Assembly: GCF_000013725.1 (NCBI RefSeq)
Contig: NC_007955.1
Coordinates: 248,001 to 312,000 of the forward strand
DNA length: 64,000 nucleotides
Source of the DNA: Methanococcoides burtonii DSM 6242
GTDB taxonomy: Archaea > Halobacteriota > Methanosarcinia > Methanosarcinales > Methanosarcinaceae
Direction of reading: 5' to 3'
Below are positions 8,573 through 17,957 of the stretch, one piece after another. The notes beneath the pieces are model-generated. The model made no database searches. It was not told the DNA's origin and worked only from the letters and a program-made list of their open reading frames with translations. Within the stretch, counting starts at the first letter, position 1; the number at the start of each line of letters is the position of its first letter. Position numbers and translations under genes: made by a program.

Positions 8573-9421
8573 TTAAATAATTCTCTCAATACCGTTATAG
8601 ACATACATATGAGGCGGGCGAACAAAACCCACCAGTGACAGACCTACCGCCCTTGCGAGGTCGATACCTTCATTTATGGGACCTGCCTTGCTGGCGAGTA
8701 CGGAAACTCCTGCATTAACGGCCTTTGAGACCATTGTGACTGAAAGCCTGCCTGTAGCGACAATTGCACATTTGGACATATCCACACCTGCAAGGGCTGC
8801 TTTGCCAACTGCTTTGTCAACAGCTGAAGCCCTGCTCACATCTTCACAGAATGCCAGGATATTGCTGTCGTTATCAGTGATAATGACCGAATGAGTACCG
8901 CCGGTGCGTCTCCATGTCTTTGCATCGGTCTTGAGGTGTTCCACTGCATTGAAGAGGACCTTACGGTCAAATCTTATGTCAGAAACATTACCGACCTTTT
9001 TCTTGCAGGGTCTAGAGCCAATGGCACAACTGCAAAAATCGAATCTTGAATCAGGATCTATGTTACGTTTGGTCTTTCCGATACGGTCCGTACAGATGTC
9101 CGCTTCGCATATCAGACGGTCATCTTTGACCTCGACCGATATGATGTCAATGGCGTGATCGATAAAACCTTCACATATTAAAAAACCCACAGCCAGTTCT
9201 TCGAACTCTTGAGGGGTTGCAAAAAAAGAAGCAAGGGGGACGTCATTGAGTGAAAGATGGAATTCTTTCTCAACGATGACATCCACATCTATTTCGTTAC
9301 TGCTGTCTTCCGTAAGCTCGACACCCTTATAAGAAAGATAAGGAGCGGAAGAATCCCATTCCTCATCACGCCAGAAGTTATTCTGAGCGTTCTTTCTTTC
9401 AATGTGCCAATCCAACGGCAT
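8573..9421 (-). CDS. fdhD: FdhD-type sulfurtransferase for molybdopterin enzyme maturation
   Basis: FdhD passes sulfur from a cysteine desulfurase to the molybdenum cofactor of formate-dehydrogenase-like enzymes. The product shows the family's EELAVGFLICEGFI block near residues 75-88, the cysteine segment CSCAIGSRPC, and the TGGTHS and CEDVSRASAVDKAVG motifs. I chose ATG at 9421, two codons into the open frame, because it follows the stop of fmdB by only a few bases. As the last gene of the fmd operon, its natural client is FmdB, the formate-dehydrogenase-like subunit; no separate formate dehydrogenase is in view. Confidence 0.88.
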   Translation of the reverse strand: MPLDWHIERKNAQNNFWRDEEWDSSAPYLSYKGVELTEDSSNEIDVDVIVEKEFHLSLNDVPLASFFATPQEFEELAVGFLICEGFIDHAIDIISVEVKDDRLICEADICTDRIGKTKRNIDPDSRFDFCSCAIGSRPCKKKVGNVSDIRFDRKVLFNAVEHLKTDAKTWRRTGGTHSVIITDNDSNILAFCEDVSRASAVDKAVGKAALAGVDMSKCAIVATGRLSVTMVSKAVNAGVSVLASKAGPINEGIDLARAVGLSLVGFVRPPHMYVYNGIERII

Positions 9422-9423
9422 GA

Positions 9424-10731
9424 TCAAGCAATTTCCTTTATCTTTGCGAACAACTGCTTGAGTGTGTCTTCATTGCTCTGTGTGAACTCGAATGGAGATG
9501 TTGTGAACGGCTTGAAGTACATTGGCACGTTGTCGAGCCTGTAGAATGTACCGTCATTCTCCATTGCATCGATGACACCAGGAAGAACAACATCTGAAGC
9601 TGTTGTTGTTGGGCATGGAGCAATATCCAGGCAGGTCATTGGGATCTCTGCAAGATAGGATGCAGCATCTGCAGGAATGTGGTTGACAAGGTCAGCACAC
9701 ATAACGAATGCAGCGTCTACGTCCTTATCCCTCAGCAGATCAACAGTGGTGGTCTCTCCAGGGTTGTACCTTGGATAGCCTCTTGAGAAGTCGATACCAA
9801 ACGGATATCCGTACAGATATGATGCGACCTGGTTGAAACCTGCCACATTACAGTGACCTCTGAGTGCACCGAGTACGAACTTTGTACCGTGGTTGTTGTT
9901 GAGCTCTTTTACAAGGTTGAGACCAAGCTCAACGTTCCTGTGCTTACCCATTGAAGAACCAAGACCAAGACCGACTGAGATGCTACCGAAGTTTGCATTC
10001 ACCATTACATCGATCATCTCATCCATTGCAGAAATTGGCACACCTGTGATCTCCTCTACAGATGGGTGTGGACGTTTTCCGTTAAGGATGGTCAGCAGTG
10101 CGCTCAAAAGCTCATAGTCAGAGTTTGGTTTAAGCTGTATGTGAAGGTCTGATGCTACTGCTGTATCGGTCCTTCTTGGGTCAACAGTGATAACCTTACG
10201 GTCGAACCTTCCTCTCTTAGACCAGTATCCTCTTGGGAAGACAGCATACTTAGACATGTGTCTTGGCATGGATGCCAGAGGGTTGGTTCCCCAATAGATG
10301 TTCACGTCAGCCCTGTTCTTGACCTGACCTGCTGTTGAGCCTGCACATCCGCTTTCCTGAATACCCATAACAGTAGGACCGTGGCAGATAGTTGCATTAG
10401 AATCTGCTACACCGCCAAGATACTCAGCGATATGAAGACCGACTTCCTGTGCTTCGCATGAGGTCTCACTTCCGAGGAAGAAAAGAGGTCTCTTTGCGTT
10501 CACAAGCATCTCTGCAGCCTTTGTGAGTGCTTCGTCCCATGCAGCTTTCTCAAGCTTACCATTCTTTTTGACAAGTGGGTCCTTAAGACGGTGTGAACTT
10601 ACGACTTCCTGGAACTTTGCATTACCCATCTTGCATGCGTTCTTGACAGTGATCTCGTTATCTCCAAGCTCTACCTGGATATCATCACATGAAGCTCCGC
10701 ATACCGGACACATAATGTTCTTAAAAACCAT
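9424..10731 (-). CDS. fmdB: Formylmethanofuran dehydrogenase subunit B
   Basis: FmdB is the molybdopterin-bearing catalytic subunit that reduces CO2 to formate before it is attached to methanofuran. The N-terminal CPVCGASCDD segment is part of the Fe-S ligand set, and ATICHGPTVMG holds the active-site cysteine, encoded by TGC and not by a selenocysteine TGA. The size of about 435 residues is normal. I placed the start at 10731, where GGGAGGT lies at a good distance, rather than the upstream in-frame ATG at 10776 that would overlap fmdD. The operon order matches the molybdenum-type fmd locus of Methanosarcina; the metal itself cannot be read from sequence. Confidence 0.95.
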   Translation of the reverse strand: MVFKNIMCPVCGASCDDIQVELGDNEITVKNACKMGNAKFQEVVSSHRLKDPLVKKNGKLEKAAWDEALTKAAEMLVNAKRPLFFLGSETSCEAQEVGLHIAEYLGGVADSNATICHGPTVMGIQESGCAGSTAGQVKNRADVNIYWGTNPLASMPRHMSKYAVFPRGYWSKRGRFDRKVITVDPRRTDTAVASDLHIQLKPNSDYELLSALLTILNGKRPHPSVEEITGVPISAMDEMIDVMVNANFGSISVGLGLGSSMGKHRNVELGLNLVKELNNNHGTKFVLGALRGHCNVAGFNQVASYLYGYPFGIDFSRGYPRYNPGETTTVDLLRDKDVDAAFVMCADLVNHIPADAASYLAEIPMTCLDIAPCPTTTASDVVLPGVIDAMENDGTFYRLDNVPMYFKPFTTSPFEFTQSNEDTLKQLFAKIKEIA

Positions 10732-10732
10732 A

Positions 10733-11122
10733 TCATTTACCTCCCATATAGAGATTAAGGACAACATCCTCTGCACTCAATACATCACCTTCTCCTGCCT
10801 CGACAGTCACAGGACTGCCTTTGTAGAGAGGAGAACCTGTTGAGAATGTATATGGATCAATGATCACGTTAGACCAGATCGCTCTTGGCATGAATACATC
10901 TCCATCCATCATAACATCTGTACATTTTGTATAAACTATGATGGAATGTTTTTTGTCCTTACTTGTTACTTTTACTTTTTCCGGGCATCCAAGGGATCCA
11001 AAATTAGAGGGGGAGAGCCAGCACACTGCGCACTCGAGCCTATATTCCTCTGAATACTTGTTTCCACCTTTTGCAAGTCTGCCCTCATTAATGGTACTTC
11101 CTGTGTTAAGTAATACTTCCAT
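10733..11122 (-). CDS. fmdD: Formylmethanofuran dehydrogenase subunit D
   Basis: This subunit of about 129 residues corresponds to the molydopterin dinucleotide-binding C-terminal domain of other molybdopterin enzymes, here split off from FmdB as in all Fwd/Fmd complexes. The FMPRAIWSNVI stretch and the C-terminal GEGDVLSAEDVV block are typical. The ATG at 11122 follows GAGGTGTGAT and is preferred over the GTG two codons upstream. The stop overlaps the ribosome site of fmdB, indicating coupled translation. Confidence 0.93.
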   Translation of the reverse strand: MEVLLNTGSTINEGRLAKGGNKYSEEYRLECAVCWLSPSNFGSLGCPEKVKVTSKDKKHSIIVYTKCTDVMMDGDVFMPRAIWSNVIIDPYTFSTGSPLYKGSPVTVEAGEGDVLSAEDVVLNLYMGGK

Positions 11123-11131
11123 TATCACACC

Positions 11132-11941
11132 TCACAGATCCAGATTTGCAGCCTGATTGACATAGAGCGTGCCCTTTGGCCTCTTTGTGATCGCATTGTC
11201 ACCGAGGAACTTCATGAACTCACCCGGGCATTCTATATCATCGAACTTAAGGTCGCTTTCGTTTGTCACATATTCAAATCCAGGAGAGAATCTCTCGATA
11301 GTTCCATTAACAACCATTGTACCGGCTGTCATTTCAGCAGCAACTGCACGAATAGCATTTCCTTTTACAGCGATAAGACCGCCGTTCTGGCGAATGCCAG
11401 TGTAGTGACCGACATTTCCACCAACGATTATCTCCCCACCGCTGATACCGCCACCAAGGTTATTGTTAGCATCACCATCGATAACGATGCGTCCGCCGGA
11501 CATTCCTATCCACTTACCGCGGTATGCACAACCAACGTGGTCATTTGCATTACCTTCGATGTGGATAAGTCCACCTACCATCTCCATTCCTGCCCATGAA
11601 TCAGCATCGCCTTTTACAAGGATCTCGCCACCTACCATCTGGGAGCCTACATGCATGCTGACAGATCCTTCAACAGTGATATTTCCAACTGTCATCTTTT
11701 CACCGATGCGCTTTACTCTCGCAGAATCGCCTTTGATGACAATAGATGTATCTTCTGCAGAAGCACCAGCATCGCCCTCCACATCAAAGAATGCAGAGAT
11801 AGGAAACTGTTTTGGGCCCTGCCAAACCAGCAGAGCCTCGATTTCGCTCTTGTTCTTGCCAGCAAATGTATCAGGAGTGATAACATCCGCCTCTATTTTT
11901 AAACCAATTTCAGTATTGACTGTAAGAATGACTTCTGCCAT
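11132..11941 (-). CDS. fmdC: Formylmethanofuran dehydrogenase subunit C
   Basis: FmdC is a structural subunit of about 270 residues related to the C-terminal domain of glutamate synthase. Its middle (about residues 70-215) is a right-handed beta-helix built from repeated turns with G-G-x-I-x-V-x-G-D/N-A, clearly visible here. In the known complex it bridges the FmdA and FmdB active sites. It starts four bases after fmdA ends. Confidence 0.95.
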   Translation of the reverse strand: MAEVILTVNTEIGLKIEADVITPDTFAGKNKSEIEALLVWQGPKQFPISAFFDVEGDAGASAEDTSIVIKGDSARVKRIGEKMTVGNITVEGSVSMHVGSQMVGGEILVKGDADSWAGMEMVGGLIHIEGNANDHVGCAYRGKWIGMSGGRIVIDGDANNNLGGGISGGEIIVGGNVGHYTGIRQNGGLIAVKGNAIRAVAAEMTAGTMVVNGTIERFSPGFEYVTNESDLKFDDIECPGEFMKFLGDNAITKRPKGTLYVNQAANLDL

Positions 11942-11945
11942 GCTC

Positions 11946-13700
11946 TCACTGCTCCGTGTTTACCTTGATCACTGTTGGATTGACCAGGTACTTCTCAGGT
12001 GTTGGATAGTGGTTGAAACCGTGTGAATAATACCTGAACCATTCCTGAACATCCTTAAGCATTTCTTTCTCATTTGCATCAGGAACGCTCGCGTCGGTAT
12101 AATATGTCCTTTTATCAGGGATCATAGTGATCTCACCATCGTGGCAGACAACCTCTCCGCCTTTGATAGTGTATTCAGCAGTGCTGAATTTGTTGATCAG
12201 GTCAGAATATTCCCTGGTATCGATCTTTGTTGGGTCGATGTCGTAAATAGTAACATCACCATCTGCACCGATACCAAAGCTACCCTTCCTGTGTGCCATA
12301 CCAATGGTCTTTGCCGTGTTAGCACGGGTAAGAATCGCAAGGTCGTAAAGGGACATTTCCCTGTCAACACCACCGAGTGTACTTCTGTCGTTAGCCCATT
12401 TGTGACATTCACTGAATGTCTGTTCCCTGAACTTCTCGGACATGAGCCAGCTCATAACGAGTGGATACTTGGTGAACGGTCCGCCATTTGGACTGTCGGT
12501 TGTCATGATGGTCTTCCATGGATCGTCGATAAGGAGCAGGCACTCAAGACCCATTGCCCACTGAGTGCTGTGAACAGGGTTGCTCTTAAGATATGTAAAT
12601 GGACAGACACCTGAACCACATTCAAGCTCAACATCAGTGTTGGACCATTTGCCACCAGTAAGCACTGAGAGATCGTGGATGGAAGGACCATCACCAGTCA
12701 TACATGTTGCTTCACCGAATGGTACGCAACCACTGTCAATGACAACATGGTCAGCGTTGTTGATATAATCTGCAAGAGGCTTGACACCAGATTCGAAATC
12801 ACGCCAGGATGTGCCGGCAAATGCATTGAACATCATGTGTGTGAGGTACACTGACTGATCTCTGCTTGCATCGATCTTTGTCTCAGCCCAGTTAACACTC
12901 ATGTTCTGCTTTGCCTTTGTTTTGCTGGAAATACCAAGAGATTCCTTTGTTGTCCTGTAGTTTCCCGGATGACCAAGATTGTTTGCGTGAAGGTGCATTG
13001 ACATTGGCATACCAAGCATTTCGTTTACTTCGGTCAGCCCATCGATGATCTCCCTGGAAGATATCTCGAAGTGTATATTTTGCTCATCAAGGGAAGAAAC
13101 ATTCTTTCCCCAGCCCCAGTTCTCAACTCCACCAGGATTGACACACTTGATACCGTATGTCTTATGAGTTCTCATCATCCATGCAACATATGCTGCTGCC
13201 CTGTCCATGTCGCCTTCCTTCAAGTAGCGCATCATGAACCAGTTGTTACCGAGAACAAGGTAGCCACCCATATCGAGCATTGGGATGGAGCGCATCTCTT
13301 CGTGTGTATGACGTGCTTCCATTGGAGGAACAGCTGCCTCAAAAGCAGTAGTATATCCCAGCTTGGAGTATTCGTAACCTTCCATGTAGACGGATGGTAC
13401 GGTCTCCCCTGAACCTGAGTGAGCGATAGCTGTTTTTGTCCTTGTTGTCTTGTAACCATCCTCAGGACGCATCATCCTACCGGTATTGACCTTAGCACCG
13501 GCAATATGTGAGTGAGAATCTACACCACCAGGCATAACTGTCTTGCCTGTTGCATCAATTACCTTAACATCTTTCAGATCAGCTGCGGAAAGTTCGGAAA
13601 CTACCACGCCGTCCTTGATGAAGATGTCCTGCTGTTCACCGTTCACTTCATTGAGCGGGTCATAAACATATCCGTTCTTAATTACAATAGTTCCAGCCAT
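11946..13700 (-). CDS. fmdA: Formylmethanofuran dehydrogenase subunit A
   Basis: FmdA is the amidohydrolase-like subunit with a binuclear metal centre that joins formate and methanofuran. The 584-residue chain shows the metal-binding DSHSHIAG near residues 61-68, a second histidine motif HLHANNLGHPGNY, and the KSNPVHSTQW region, all at the spacing seen in the family. Its start codon overlaps the fmdF stop by one base. Confidence 0.96.
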   Translation of the reverse strand: MAGTIVIKNGYVYDPLNEVNGEQQDIFIKDGVVVSELSAADLKDVKVIDATGKTVMPGGVDSHSHIAGAKVNTGRMMRPEDGYKTTRTKTAIAHSGSGETVPSVYMEGYEYSKLGYTTAFEAAVPPMEARHTHEEMRSIPMLDMGGYLVLGNNWFMMRYLKEGDMDRAAAYVAWMMRTHKTYGIKCVNPGGVENWGWGKNVSSLDEQNIHFEISSREIIDGLTEVNEMLGMPMSMHLHANNLGHPGNYRTTKESLGISSKTKAKQNMSVNWAETKIDASRDQSVYLTHMMFNAFAGTSWRDFESGVKPLADYINNADHVVIDSGCVPFGEATCMTGDGPSIHDLSVLTGGKWSNTDVELECGSGVCPFTYLKSNPVHSTQWAMGLECLLLIDDPWKTIMTTDSPNGGPFTKYPLVMSWLMSEKFREQTFSECHKWANDRSTLGGVDREMSLYDLAILTRANTAKTIGMAHRKGSFGIGADGDVTIYDIDPTKIDTREYSDLINKFSTAEYTIKGGEVVCHDGEITMIPDKRTYYTDASVPDANEKEMLKDVQEWFRYYSHGFNHYPTPEKYLVNPTVIKVNTEQ

Positions 13701-14722
13701 TATTCAACCTCCCTCTTCTCAAGCCAAATTGCAGAAACCGGGCAGATAAGAGCACATGCACCACAGGAGCCACATGCTTCCTGATCAACTACTTTGACAG
13801 TACCGTTCCTTACCTCAAGCAGTGGTTTCTCATCAAGATCATTCAGTGAACCTGCTGCAAGATCCTTTGAGGATTTTGCATTGACAGGACACATGATCAC
13901 ACAATTTCCACAGCCAAGACATGCATCTTCATCTGTCACCAGGACAGAGGTCAATACAGGAGTTGCTGATGGCTTGTTGAGAAGTTTCTTCTCAAATACA
14001 GCTTTCTTGTTCATGTCAGGAACGATCGCTGTCTTCTGGACATCGATAGCATTGACAGGACAGGAAACAGCACATGCACCACAGTAGATACATGCATCAG
14101 GACGCTGAGCGACCTTGTCAACTCTTTCTCCTGGAGCCCATTCCGGATTGAACAGTGCATTGCATGGACATACATCCACACAGGTACGGCATGCCTGACA
14201 GACATCCTCTGCACGTTCCCAGGTACCCTCGAAAGGTTTCTGCACAGTTATAGCATTAGTTGGACATACCTCGCTACACCATCCACAGTGTACGCAGGTT
14301 TCCTGATCGATGATGGTTTCACCATCTATGCGTGCACTGCCATCGTTTGCAAGCCACTGCCTGGTCTCGATAGCACCCTGCGGACAGATCTGCTCACATA
14401 CACCACAGTGTACACAATTATCGTTCACCGTTGTTGGTGCGAGCGAGCTGCACAGGAAGTTCTCATCGCATACAGGCTTTCCATCTTCTCTCATCTCAAG
14501 GGCACCTGTTGGACAGACCTTAGTACACATTCCACATGTGATACATGTATCTCTAATATCCAGGTACTCCTTATTGATGAGTCCCCTGGCAACAGGTCCT
14601 ACTGAACCTATGATCAATGTGTCCTTAGGACAGACCATCGTACAGGTTCCGCAACCAATGCACTTTTCTGGTAAATACACCACTTGCTTGTTATCTTTTG
14701 TCTGAACTACTATTTCGTTCAT
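13700..14722 (-). CDS. fmdF: Polyferredoxin subunit of formylmethanofuran dehydrogenase
   Basis: FmdF feeds electrons to the FmdB active site. Eight ferredoxin-type Cx2Cx2Cx3CP motifs can be counted along the chain (for example CIGCGTCTMVCP and CIYCGACAVSCP), giving a predicted eight [4Fe-4S] clusters in four two-cluster units. I prefer ATG at 14722, which has GGAG eight bases upstream and follows fmdE by 16 bases. The longer frame from 14803 would begin inside fmdE. The operon position between fmdE and fmdA matches the Mo-type locus of Methanosarcina. Confidence 0.94.
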   Translation of the reverse strand: MNEIVVQTKDNKQVVYLPEKCIGCGTCTMVCPKDTLIIGSVGPVARGLINKEYLDIRDTCITCGMCTKVCPTGALEMREDGKPVCDENFLCSSLAPTTVNDNCVHCGVCEQICPQGAIETRQWLANDGSARIDGETIIDQETCVHCGWCSEVCPTNAITVQKPFEGTWERAEDVCQACRTCVDVCPCNALFNPEWAPGERVDKVAQRPDACIYCGACAVSCPVNAIDVQKTAIVPDMNKKAVFEKKLLNKPSATPVLTSVLVTDEDACLGCGNCVIMCPVNAKSSKDLAAGSLNDLDEKPLLEVRNGTVKVVDQEACGSCGACALICPVSAIWLEKREVE

Positions 14723-14738
14723 CTCATCTACTCCGTAA

Positions 14739-15329
14739 TTACTGCTCATGCCTGCATGCTTCACAAAGCGCTTCGCCTTCATATTGAATGAAGCTCTCTC
14801 CACATTTTTCGCACAGCCTTACTTGCTTGCTTTTCTTGACAGGAACTTCGATCGCTGTAAAAGTGTAAGAATAAATTTTCTCGCCTGCTTCGAGTAAAAT
14901 AGGCAGGATCTCTTCATGACGTACTTTTTCAAGGTTCATGAACCACGCATGCAATCTGGGATAAGCCTCGGTCTTTTCCGCATCAAGATATATCCTGACT
15001 GCGGGCATGATCATTTCACCCGGTGCACCACGTTTGTTCACGGTAACAGCCATCTTGCCGTAGTCCTTGATCTTCATTCCCTTATTCCCGATGGTAGCAC
15101 CCTCGAGTATCTGGAATGGATCAGGGACACAATTTGATGTCTCCGCTGTAACATAGATGCGTTCTCCTTCCTTAACATCAAGTAATCTCTTCGCCATCGT
15201 GAGCATCTGTAATCCTATCATTGCTCCCGAGCTCAAGTACCCGTGAAAAGGAATTATCTTCTCTATCTGCAAAAATAGCTCTGGATCTTGCTCTTTTATC
15301 CTGTTGATAATAGTATCCATATCATCCAT
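14739..15329 (-). CDS. fmdE: FmdE, first gene of the fmd operon
   Basis: The product has the FmdE domain in its first 150 residues (PFHGYLSSGAMIGLQM is the hallmark) and a short C-terminal zinc ribbon with CEKCGESF and CEAC. FmdE co-occurs with formylmethanofuran dehydrogenase, but its task in the complex is not settled. The start at 15329 follows AGAGGT by six bases; the open frame extends ten codons further up without a ribosome site. A TATA-like element lies about 105 bp upstream. Confidence 0.92.
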   Translation of the reverse strand: MDDMDTIINRIKEQDPELFLQIEKIIPFHGYLSSGAMIGLQMLTMAKRLLDVKEGERIYVTAETSNCVPDPFQILEGATIGNKGMKIKDYGKMAVTVNKRGAPGEMIMPAVRIYLDAEKTEAYPRLHAWFMNLEKVRHEEILPILLEAGEKIYSYTFTAIEVPVKKSKQVRLCEKCGESFIQYEGEALCEACRHEQ

Positions 15330-15431
15330 ATGAAGACCTCTTAATTTATGAAATAACACATCGAATCAGCCAGATCCTTATAGGCTCTGCCTGATAGCAT
15401 AGCCTCTAATGTTAAGGAACATACTGGTGAA

Positions 15432-15587: not shown

Positions 15588-15875
15588 TCATTCCACCAGC
15601 TCAGCAACCCTTTCGAGCAATTGTCTGGCAGTACCATCATCCGGCGCATGTCTCACAGTGATCTTGCCACTCCCATAGATAAGCACCATCATAGCACCTG
15701 AAGTAAAACGGATCGCACCAAGCTCTTCAGAACACCTGAGAAACTTGATGGTAACGCCTTCTTCGACAGATAAAGCTTCACATGCCTTTGGGATATCTAT
15801 CTCATTTTCAAGCTGCGCCTCTACATGAAAAATAGAAGGCTTGCTTGTACAAGGAGCAATAGAACGAATTTCCAT
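15588..15875 (-). CDS. Small uncharacterised protein downstream of the IscU gene
   Basis: The 95-residue product alternates beta-strand-like hydrophobic stretches and polar turns, with three cysteines, the glycine-rich segment MMVLIYGSGKITVR near residues 62-75 and a C-terminal amphipathic helix. This looks like a compact alpha/beta fold. It lies 50 bp downstream of the Fe-S scaffold gene on the same strand and is probably cotranscribed with it. I do not recognise a named family; a role in sulfur or Fe-S handling is inference from position. Confidence 0.6.
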   Translation of the reverse strand: MEIRSIAPCTSKPSIFHVEAQLENEIDIPKACEALSVEEGVTIKFLRCSEELGAIRFTSGAMMVLIYGSGKITVRHAPDDGTARQLLERVAELVE

Positions 15876-15925: not shown

Positions 15926-16561
15926 TCAGGAGATGAAATCAACCGTGACACTCTCAACATCCCACAATGATTCCAGCTTATCGACAATATCTTCCTTTAT
16001 GGCAACTGCAAACTGATGTGTCGAAGGTATATCAAGCACTATACGAACAGTACCTTCCTCGACCACCACCTTTAGCACAAGTTCGGTCCTGATGATATCA
16101 AGACCTGCCATCGGGTTCATCACATGCTTCAAACGCTTACTGACAACCTCTACCGTAGTGGCCTCATTCTCCACGACCATGCCATGCTTCTCTTCATAAT
16201 CACGAATAGCAGACCGAAGCCCCTCGACCGCAAGCACGGAACAATGCGCCTTGACAGGTGGAAGTCCACCAAGAGCATTAGCTGCTTCCTTCCACGTGAT
16301 CTTCTTGGCCTCTTCAAGCGTCTTGCCCTTTGCCATCTCAGTAATCATAGATGCTGTTGCGATATTGGATGCACAGCCATAGGACTCGAAAGAAATATCC
16401 TCGATAACCAGAGTATCAGGATTAACTTTCAGATAAACGGCAACCATATCACCACATGCAGGACTGCCTTCAAGACCCTTGCCGTCAGGATCCTCCATCT
16501 TTCCAACATTCTGTGGATTTCTGAAATGCTCAAGTACCTCTTTTGTGTATGGGAAAGTCAT
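15926..16561 (-). CDS. IscU-type Fe-S scaffold fused to a DUF59-like C-terminal domain
   Basis: Residues 1-125 are an IscU domain with all three cluster cysteines in context (SPACGDMV, YGCASNIA and KAHCSVLA) and the adjacent conserved Asp. The last 75 or so residues resemble a MIP18/DUF59- or NifU-C-type domain, which in other proteins helps cluster transfer. The scaffold therefore looks functional. It lies 33 bp downstream of an IscS-like gene. The partner's missing catalytic residues raise the question of where this scaffold gets its sulfur. Confidence 0.88.
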   Translation of the reverse strand: MTFPYTKEVLEHFRNPQNVGKMEDPDGKGLEGSPACGDMVAVYLKVNPDTLVIEDISFESYGCASNIATASMITEMAKGKTLEEAKKITWKEAANALGGLPPVKAHCSVLAVEGLRSAIRDYEEKHGMVVENEATTVEVVSKRLKHVMNPMAGLDIIRTELVLKVVVEEGTVRIVLDIPSTHQFAVAIKEDIVDKLESLWDVESVTVDFIS

Positions 16562-16594: not shown

Positions 16595-17764
16595 TCAATT
16601 ATCTTCTGACAGAGGGCTGATAGCCCGCAGATTCGTGACAACATCCTTCAATGCATCAATAATAGCATCTGCATCCTCAATAGTATTAAAGCGCCCGAAA
16701 CTGAAACGCAGTGACCCATGTGCCCTCTCATGATTGCCACCGATACCTAGTATCACATGGCTTGCTTCAAGAGAACGACTAAAACATGCAGAGCCTGTAC
16801 TTACTGCAAAGCCCAGCATATCAAGATGCAATGTAATGGATTCACCCTCGACATAATGGAATGTCATATTAGCATTTTGTGGCAACCTGCTGGTAGCACT
16901 TCCATTTAGCGTAACATGAGAAATATCAGACATCGCTCTTTCGATAACGCGATCCCTCATAGCTGCAAGGCGTTCATTCTCCTCAGGGGTCACAAGTTCC
17001 ACAGCTTTTGCAAATCCTACCGCAGACGGGATGTTCTCCACACCAGCACGCCTATCGGATTCCTGGAATCCTCCATCCATCCATTTGTCGATCGGAGTTC
17101 CTTCACGTATATACAGTGCACCAATACCTCTGGGACCATGTATAGTATGTGCTGACATTGTTACAAGGTCCACCGGAAGTTTGCTCACATCCAGAGGAAC
17201 TCGTGTAAAACTATGAGTGGCATCAGTATGCAACAGAACATCCTTATCCTCACAGATATCAGAGATGGCTTTAAGGTCCTGCAAAGTGCCTATCTCCTGA
17301 TTTGCCTGCTGAATGGATACCAGTGCTGTTTGCGAAGTGATAGTATCGGTGAACATATCAATATCGAGGACACCTTCTCCATCGACATTTATAAAGTCTA
17401 CCTTATAGCCCTGCTTATCGAGTTTCTTTGCTGTGTTCAGCACAGAGAAATCTTCCAGACGGGATACGATCAAATGGTCGTCCTTCTTTCCTTTCAGAGC
17501 TGAAAGCACTCCTTTTATTGCCATATTGCTCGATTCAGTGCTTCCTGAAGTGAATACGATCTCGCCAGCTTGCGCACCAAGTCTTGATGCAATGACCTTG
17601 CGTGACCTTTCAAGACCTTCCTTGGCATCAATGCCCATGGAATAACCGAATTCAGACGTAGCAACTGCATAAGCATCAAAGAAATACGGTTTCATCGCTT
17701 CAAGTACTTCTTCATCAAGTCTTGTACTTGCAGCGTTATCAAGATAGATTGTCTCATTGAACAT
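16595..17764 (-). CDS. IscS/NifS-like protein lacking the PLP lysine
   Basis: The 389-residue chain has the full layout of a class V aminotransferase cysteine desulfurase: YLDNAAST at the N-terminus, FTSGSTESSNMAIKG, HTDATHSF, and the mobile-loop cysteine in STGSACFSRS (Cys327). However, the SAHK motif that carries the Schiff-base lysine reads SAHT (Thr207, codon ACT), and the EH motif whose histidine stacks on PLP reads ED (Asp105). Without these residues normal PLP chemistry is not expected. The start at 17764 follows GGGGTG. It is paired with an intact IscU-type scaffold. Confidence 0.85.
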   Translation of the reverse strand: MFNETIYLDNAASTRLDEEVLEAMKPYFFDAYAVATSEFGYSMGIDAKEGLERSRKVIASRLGAQAGEIVFTSGSTESSNMAIKGVLSALKGKKDDHLIVSRLEDFSVLNTAKKLDKQGYKVDFINVDGEGVLDIDMFTDTITSQTALVSIQQANQEIGTLQDLKAISDICEDKDVLLHTDATHSFTRVPLDVSKLPVDLVTMSAHTIHGPRGIGALYIREGTPIDKWMDGGFQESDRRAGVENIPSAVGFAKAVELVTPEENERLAAMRDRVIERAMSDISHVTLNGSATSRLPQNANMTFHYVEGESITLHLDMLGFAVSTGSACFSRSLEASHVILGIGGNHERAHGSLRFSFGRFNTIEDADAIIDALKDVVTNLRAISPLSEDN

Positions 17765-17957
17765 CTGGCAATACACCCCTTAAATTAAATGGAATAAGAT
17801 ATTGAACCGATCTGCCAAGATAAATGTAATGATAAAGGCAATTTAAGACAGATATCGGTGAACATACAAAGTTATATCGGCAACTGTATAAATCGTTAAC
17901 TATCTGCCGTGATTCAAAAAGATGAACAGGCAGATAAACTACCTGTTTCAACAAAGA

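Follow-up and report, generated by a model that had tools for sequence, protein, structure and literature searches.

A two-gene locus of Methanococcoides burtonii DSM 6242 raises the question of how anaerobes such as methanogens supply sulfur to iron-sulfur clusters in the absence of a functional cysteine desulfurase. The locus was found in a 64,000 nucleotide stretch of DNA, referred to here as the window, from a genome that consists of one contig of 2,575,032 bases. It encodes an IscS/NifS-like protein with Thr at the position of the PLP lysine, and an IscU-like partner; these we have named IscSt and IscUt (Thr-type). The features of the locus are as follows.

16595-17764, minus strand: iscSt, open reading frame for an IscS/NifS-like protein of 389 aa from the ATG (16595-17776 if an alternative upstream GTG start is used)
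17450-17452, minus strand: iscSt codon 105 (GAT, Asp), at the position of the catalytic, PLP-stacking His
17213-17215, minus strand: iscSt codon 184 (His), aligned with E. coli Gln183
17144-17146, minus strand: iscSt codon 207 (ACT, Thr), at the position of the PLP lysine
16784-16786, minus strand: iscSt codon 327 (TGT), the mobile-loop Cys
15926-16561, minus strand: iscUt, IscU/NifU_N domain (residues 5-126) fused to a PF01883 FeS_assembly_P domain (residues 139-207), both assigned with Pfam
15588-15875, minus strand: X95, a 95-aa protein found beside iscSUt in Methanococcoides only, with no Pfam match over the cut-off
8573-15359, minus strand: fwdE-F-A-C-D-B then fdhD, downstream of iscSUt and so placed in Methanococcoides only

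X95, located between iscUt and fwdE, is genus-specific and gave a weak, sub-threshold match to a TBP-like Pfam family; it probably lies outside the iscSUt system. Scans for promoters and terminators gave matches at chance level only.

Active site of IscSt

Comparison of IscSt with canonical IscS sequences revealed three altered PLP contacts. The canonical SAHKIYGPKG reads SAHTIHGPRG, which replaces the lysine that forms the PLP aldimine with Thr207, and the canonical EH reads ED in LEDFS, which places Asp105 at the position of the PLP-stacking catalytic His (E. coli His104). Both changes, together with an intact mobile loop (STGSACFS) that carries the persulfide Cys (Cys327), had been described in the original prediction and were confirmed in the sequence. 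To these the sequence adds a third change, absent from that description, of the canonical Gln (Gln183 in E. coli) to His184 (in DATHS). IscSt matched PF00266 (E 1.1e-70) and fell under both NCBIfam cut-offs, scoring 421.6 against 530.75 for NifS and 362 against 548 for IscS. Its closest PDB sequences were those of Archaeoglobus fulgidus IscS 2 (4r5f, 4eb5), and its AF2 model (pTM 0.83) matched NFS1 (TM ~0.86), 4eb5 (TM 0.84) and 1p3w.

The H104Q, Q183E and K206A substitutions each abolish, singly, the desulfurase activity of E. coli IscS (PMC9978102). As the Lys, His and Gln are all replaced in IscSt, and each change alone is enough to inactivate the E. coli enzyme, desulfurase activity of IscSt is very improbable, as had been predicted. 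Judged from its residues, the activity has almost certainly been lost and PLP would be missing from the protein. Many genes that are annotated as encoding a cysteine desulfurase cannot, on these grounds, encode one. Loss of the lysine is not new in itself, since it has already been published for Methanosarcina acetivorans MA0808 and for A. fulgidus IscS (PMC7585200).

Non-covalent binding of PLP by IscSt, with PLP chemistry that is slow or of another kind and acts on cysteine or a different substrate, would be compatible with the retention in Thr-type proteins of phosphate-site residues (the equivalents of Asp180, Thr76 and His205, and mostly that of Ser203) and with the observation that some PLP remains in E. 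coli IscS K206A (PMC9978102). The combined absence of Lys, His and Gln, however, argues against it, as does the phosphate-binding Thr from the second subunit, which is nearly always V, L or I in the Thr-type, and we regard such chemistry as very unlikely.

Conservation of the Thr-type branch and its scaffold partner

An alignment of distinct orthologues (duplicates removed) showed the Thr207, Asp105, His184 and Cys327 set in 96/96 sequences, whereas 82/82 lysine-type genes encoded Lys, His, Gln and Cys at these positions. Thr and Asp were fixed across every Methanosarcinaceae orthologue read, the gene being found in seven genera of this family. A scan of GTDB contigs with the orthologue alignment yielded 142 relatives, found with the patterns MKPY[FY]FD and YAVATSEF, which are clear of the active-site positions but restrict which relatives could be found. 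The best 80 of the 142 were examined, and Thr, Asp, His and Cys were present in 80/80 of them. The bacteria among these best 80 included Dehalococcoidia, Anaerolineae, Atribacterota, Actinomycetota, a WOR-3 bacterium, Thermodesulfovibrionales and a Deltaproteobacterium; the archaea included Methanofastidiosum, a Methanobacteriaceae MAG, Methanothrix, Methanomassiliicoccaceae, Altiarchaeales and Heimdallarchaeota. Archaeal and bacterial copies shared 63-68% identity, and the Thr-type formed a separate clade with 100/100 support. The suggestion that conserved substitutions would mark a separate branch of the family was therefore correct as to the fixed residues and the clade, but the branch is not specific to methanogens, as it spans bacteria and archaea.

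Loss of active-site residues could also mean that IscSt is a functionless, decaying pseudo-enzyme or the product of a sequencing error. The dN/dS of iscSt against its congeners was 0.05-0.08 (about 0.06), and that of the neighbouring FwdA was 0.072. Strong purifying selection of this kind, together with the fixation of the same three substitutions in 96 genes from many phyla, excludes both decay and error, and the probability left to this explanation is negligible.

The partner gene, iscUt, was found directly after iscSt in 89/89 Thr-type loci with adequate flanks. IscUt is at least 211 aa long, compared to a median of 132 aa for the partners of lysine-type IscS, and the extra length is accounted for by the C-terminal PF01883 domain. 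The cluster ligands, three Cys and an Asp (C36, D38, C63 and C107), were invariant in 28 aligned IscUt sequences. The predicted structure of IscUt was confident (pLDDT 89.8), and its IscU part matched 4eb5_C, the A. fulgidus IscU complexed with IscS. The partner had been taken for an intact IscU-type scaffold, which agrees with its ligands; it is not, however, a plain IscU but a fusion.

A different fusion, of IscU with a Pyr_redox_2 flavin oxidoreductase (~445-474 aa), was observed beside Asp-type lysine-less IscS in several genomes of the Methanosarcinales order, which suggests a built-in electron donor. Similar open reading frames were present at L235, L237, L251, L252 and L253.

L061, 720-2144, minus strand: IscU-Pyr_redox_2 fusion
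L077, 1659-2996, minus strand: IscU-Pyr_redox_2 fusion

Linkage of lysine-less IscS genes to TusA and DsrE

Outside Methanococcoides, a 139-aa DsrE2-family protein (PF13686) was normally encoded upstream of iscSt, with TusA encoded upstream of DsrE2. The commonest order, tusA-dsrE2-iscSt-iscUt, was found in 45/57 loci with full flanks, in both bacteria and archaea, and the order iscSt-iscUt-tusA-dsrE2 was found in some Chloroflexota. In Methanococcoides tusA-dsrE2 is unlinked to iscSUt; in the window genome the pair lies at about G000:C1:79,580-80,288 and both reading frames are intact. The carriers encoded beside Thr-type genes retained CPxP (80/80 TusA) and the DsrE Cys (80/81). Analysis of the Methanosarcinaceae genomes revealed 80 with both IscSt and DsrE2, four with IscSt alone, none with DsrE2 alone and 28 with neither; one of the four was 76% complete and another had iscSt cut at a contig end. 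DsrE2 was undetected in the nearly complete, IscSt-bearing MAG G066 (L054/L132).

Linkage was scored when a gene for TusA or DsrE lay no more than 1.5 kb away on the same strand, using TusA and DsrE profiles that were built from the lysine-less loci. It was found for 79/89 Thr-type, 45/46 Asp-type and 2/2 Gln/Glu-type genes but for 0/75 Lys-type genes, a set that includes Lys-type copies in genomes also bearing IscSt. A further Chloroflexota set gave 0/40 for the Lys-type and 4/5 for lysine-less genes (Leu, Ala, Gln). The pooled linkage was 130/142 for lysine-less against 0/115 for lysine-bearing IscS genes, the Lys-type sample being mainly from Halobacteriota, Chloroflexota and IscSt-bearing genomes. 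The A. fulgidus (Asp) type is included in this pattern, with DsrE directly upstream of A. fulgidus iscS (L209). In every lysine-less lineage seen, the missing PLP lysine was accompanied by TusA/DsrE. The original prediction had proposed a sulfide- or persulfide-relay partner for IscU; this linkage makes a persulfide relay much more likely, although the probable sulfur donors, TusA and DsrE2, had been missed.

The Fisher p of 6e-46 for this association overstates the independence of the loci, as a single origin of lysine loss was not rejected by AU tests (p 0.775, 0.445 and 0.198). Independent, convergent losses, of which the first tree had given two and later trees two to three, were for this reason not retained as a conclusion. 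From these trees and tests, lysine loss with TusA/DsrE linkage would have arisen one to three times.

In Chloroflexota, IscS homologues in which Ala or Gln takes the place of the PLP lysine were also observed, with TusA and DsrE at 3/4 of them, and look like a further lysine-less lineage.

L345, 1489-2676, plus strand: Ala/Gln-type IscS
L360, 1993-3174, minus strand: Ala/Gln-type IscS
L362, 2051-3238, minus strand: Ala/Gln-type IscS
L361, 1991-3169, minus strand: Ala/Gln-type IscS

A search of the open-access literature revealed no paper that describes the linkage to TusA/DsrE, the spread of the family across both domains or the fusion of the partner IscU to PF01883. A. fulgidus IscS is reported, in a summary of earlier work, to be missing the lysine, to have no desulfurase activity and to provide a Cys ligand to the cluster (PMC7585200). 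If so, the protein would contribute a ligand and not sulfur, and a relay may not be its role. IscSt could likewise be a structural platform whose Cys ligates a nascent [2Fe-2S] cluster on IscUt, with free sulfide as the sulfur source and TusA/DsrE serving another co-encoded pathway; the nearest folds to IscSt include the A. fulgidus IscS-IscU structures 4eb5 and 4eb7. This arrangement would leave the linkage of TusA/DsrE to lysine-less IscS unexplained (45/46 for the Asp-type, including the DsrE at L209, against 0/115 for the Lys-type), and it was considered unlikely.

A candidate persulfide relay and its relation to known systems

We consider it probable that IscSt is a PLP-independent hub for docking and persulfide relay, supplied with sulfide or sulfane sulfur, in which sulfur passes from DsrE2/TusA to Cys327 and then to IscUt. 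An ancestral cysteine desulfurase would have dropped its PLP chemistry and retained its role as a hub. DsrE2/TusA would acquire sulfane sulfur, whether from sulfide, polysulfide or a different donor, and sulfide alone is sufficient to persulfurate DsrE (PMC3397948). The sulfur would then be handed to Cys327, whose loop would swing it into the active site of IscUt, where iron would be added, and the PF01883 domain may afterwards receive the cluster or pass it on. TusA and IscU dock on IscS at separate sites, in competition with each other, and both sites are within reach of the Cys loop (PMC2854127, PMC11302665). In Methanococcoides the same relay would operate in trans, with tusA-dsrE2 elsewhere in the genome. 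We infer the relay itself and its direction of flow, on which gene order is silent, and likewise the original sulfur donor and the part played by PF01883. The relay and the platform are compatible, as Cys327 could relay sulfur first and serve as a ligand afterwards.

The conserved gene set and the ordered relay offer a testable answer to the question of sulfur supply. Methanococcoides is a natural test case, since a single IscS-type gene, which is lysine-less, was found in 11/11 genomes of the genus searched; the window genome encodes in addition one group-II SufS-like gene, with the lysine kept. In M. acetivorans the biochemically active pair is iscSU2, of the lysine type, so iscSU1 may be accessory there. 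A broader proposal, towards which we lean only slightly, is that TusA, DsrE, IscSt and IscUt (with PF01883) form a cross-domain, PLP-free Fe-S assembly system of anaerobes that takes sulfane sulfur from TusA/DsrE and not from cysteine. More generally, loss of the IscS lysine would accompany recruitment of TusA/DsrE, and the A. fulgidus enzyme would belong to the same functional class, which offers a possible reason for its inactivity.

FdhD belongs to a sulfurtransferase family for Mo/W enzymes. Its gene and the fwd genes lie downstream of iscSUt in the window and in a congener, and fdhD was also found near IscSt in Dehalococcoidia and Altiarchaeales (L158, 4848-5639, minus strand; L164; L186); at L158 and L164 it has a lysine-type iscSU pair next to it, on the opposite strand. 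Sulfur could accordingly be sent from IscSt to TusA/DsrE2, to be used in thiolating tRNA or in sulfurating Mo/W cofactors (in Methanococcoides, that of formylmethanofuran dehydrogenase via FdhD), and not to Fe-S clusters, in the direction from IscS to TusA that is taken in E. coli (PMC2854127). Against this, the partner that is always present is the IscU scaffold, the fwd linkage is restricted to Methanococcoides, and IscSt without PLP chemistry has no obvious sulfur to donate; flow in this direction was judged highly improbable. Maturation of Fwd via FdhD was also rejected as the main explanation of the locus, as the fwd-fdhD arrangement was absent from the other genera examined.

Among known systems, A. 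fulgidus IscS (IscS 2; PDB 4EB5, 4EB7 and 4HVK, with the D199K mutant in 4R5F) shares with IscSt the IscS fold, the lost PLP lysine, the retained loop Cys and an adjacent IscU. Its neighbourhood likewise has DsrE, and TusA is found at the second A. fulgidus copy. Its residue pattern, however, was not that of IscSt: Asp and not Thr replaces the lysine, the His is kept, Gln is changed to Ala and His205 to Asn. It also falls in a supported clade separate from the Thr/Asp/His branch (100/100), and its type of IscU is without PF01883, being fused in some relatives to the Pyr_redox_2 reductase.

M. acetivorans IscS1/IscU1 (MA0808/MA0807) is, judged from sequence identity (~75% for G074, probably M. 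acetivorans), orthologous to the window pair, and its IscU1 is a 24-kDa protein. Unlike the window genome, M. acetivorans has tusA-dsrE2 directly upstream of iscSU1 and two lysine-type IscS besides. It has been reported that IscS1 is without the lysine and may function as A. fulgidus IscS does, and the genes around it are described as having no known function (PMC7585200); a table in the same paper records IscS1 in the proteome, whereas the text states that only IscS2/IscU2 were consistently detected. When produced on its own in E. coli, IscS1 was found in inclusion bodies (PMC7585200).

The minimal iron-sulfur (MIS) system, MisS/MisU, was described from methanogenic archaea and likewise comprises two genes for IscS and IscU homologues, and iscSUt is also a stand-alone, adjacent pair of this kind. 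MisS/MisU differs in that it is presented as a cysteine desulfurase with a scaffold (cited in PMC12442378). Finally, the Tus relay of E. coli (IscS-TusA-TusBCD) similarly involves DsrE/TusA carriers in persulfide work with an IscS-type protein. There sulfur leaves IscS toward TusA, whereas the flow proposed for IscSt would be reversed, because IscSt has lost the means to generate persulfide.
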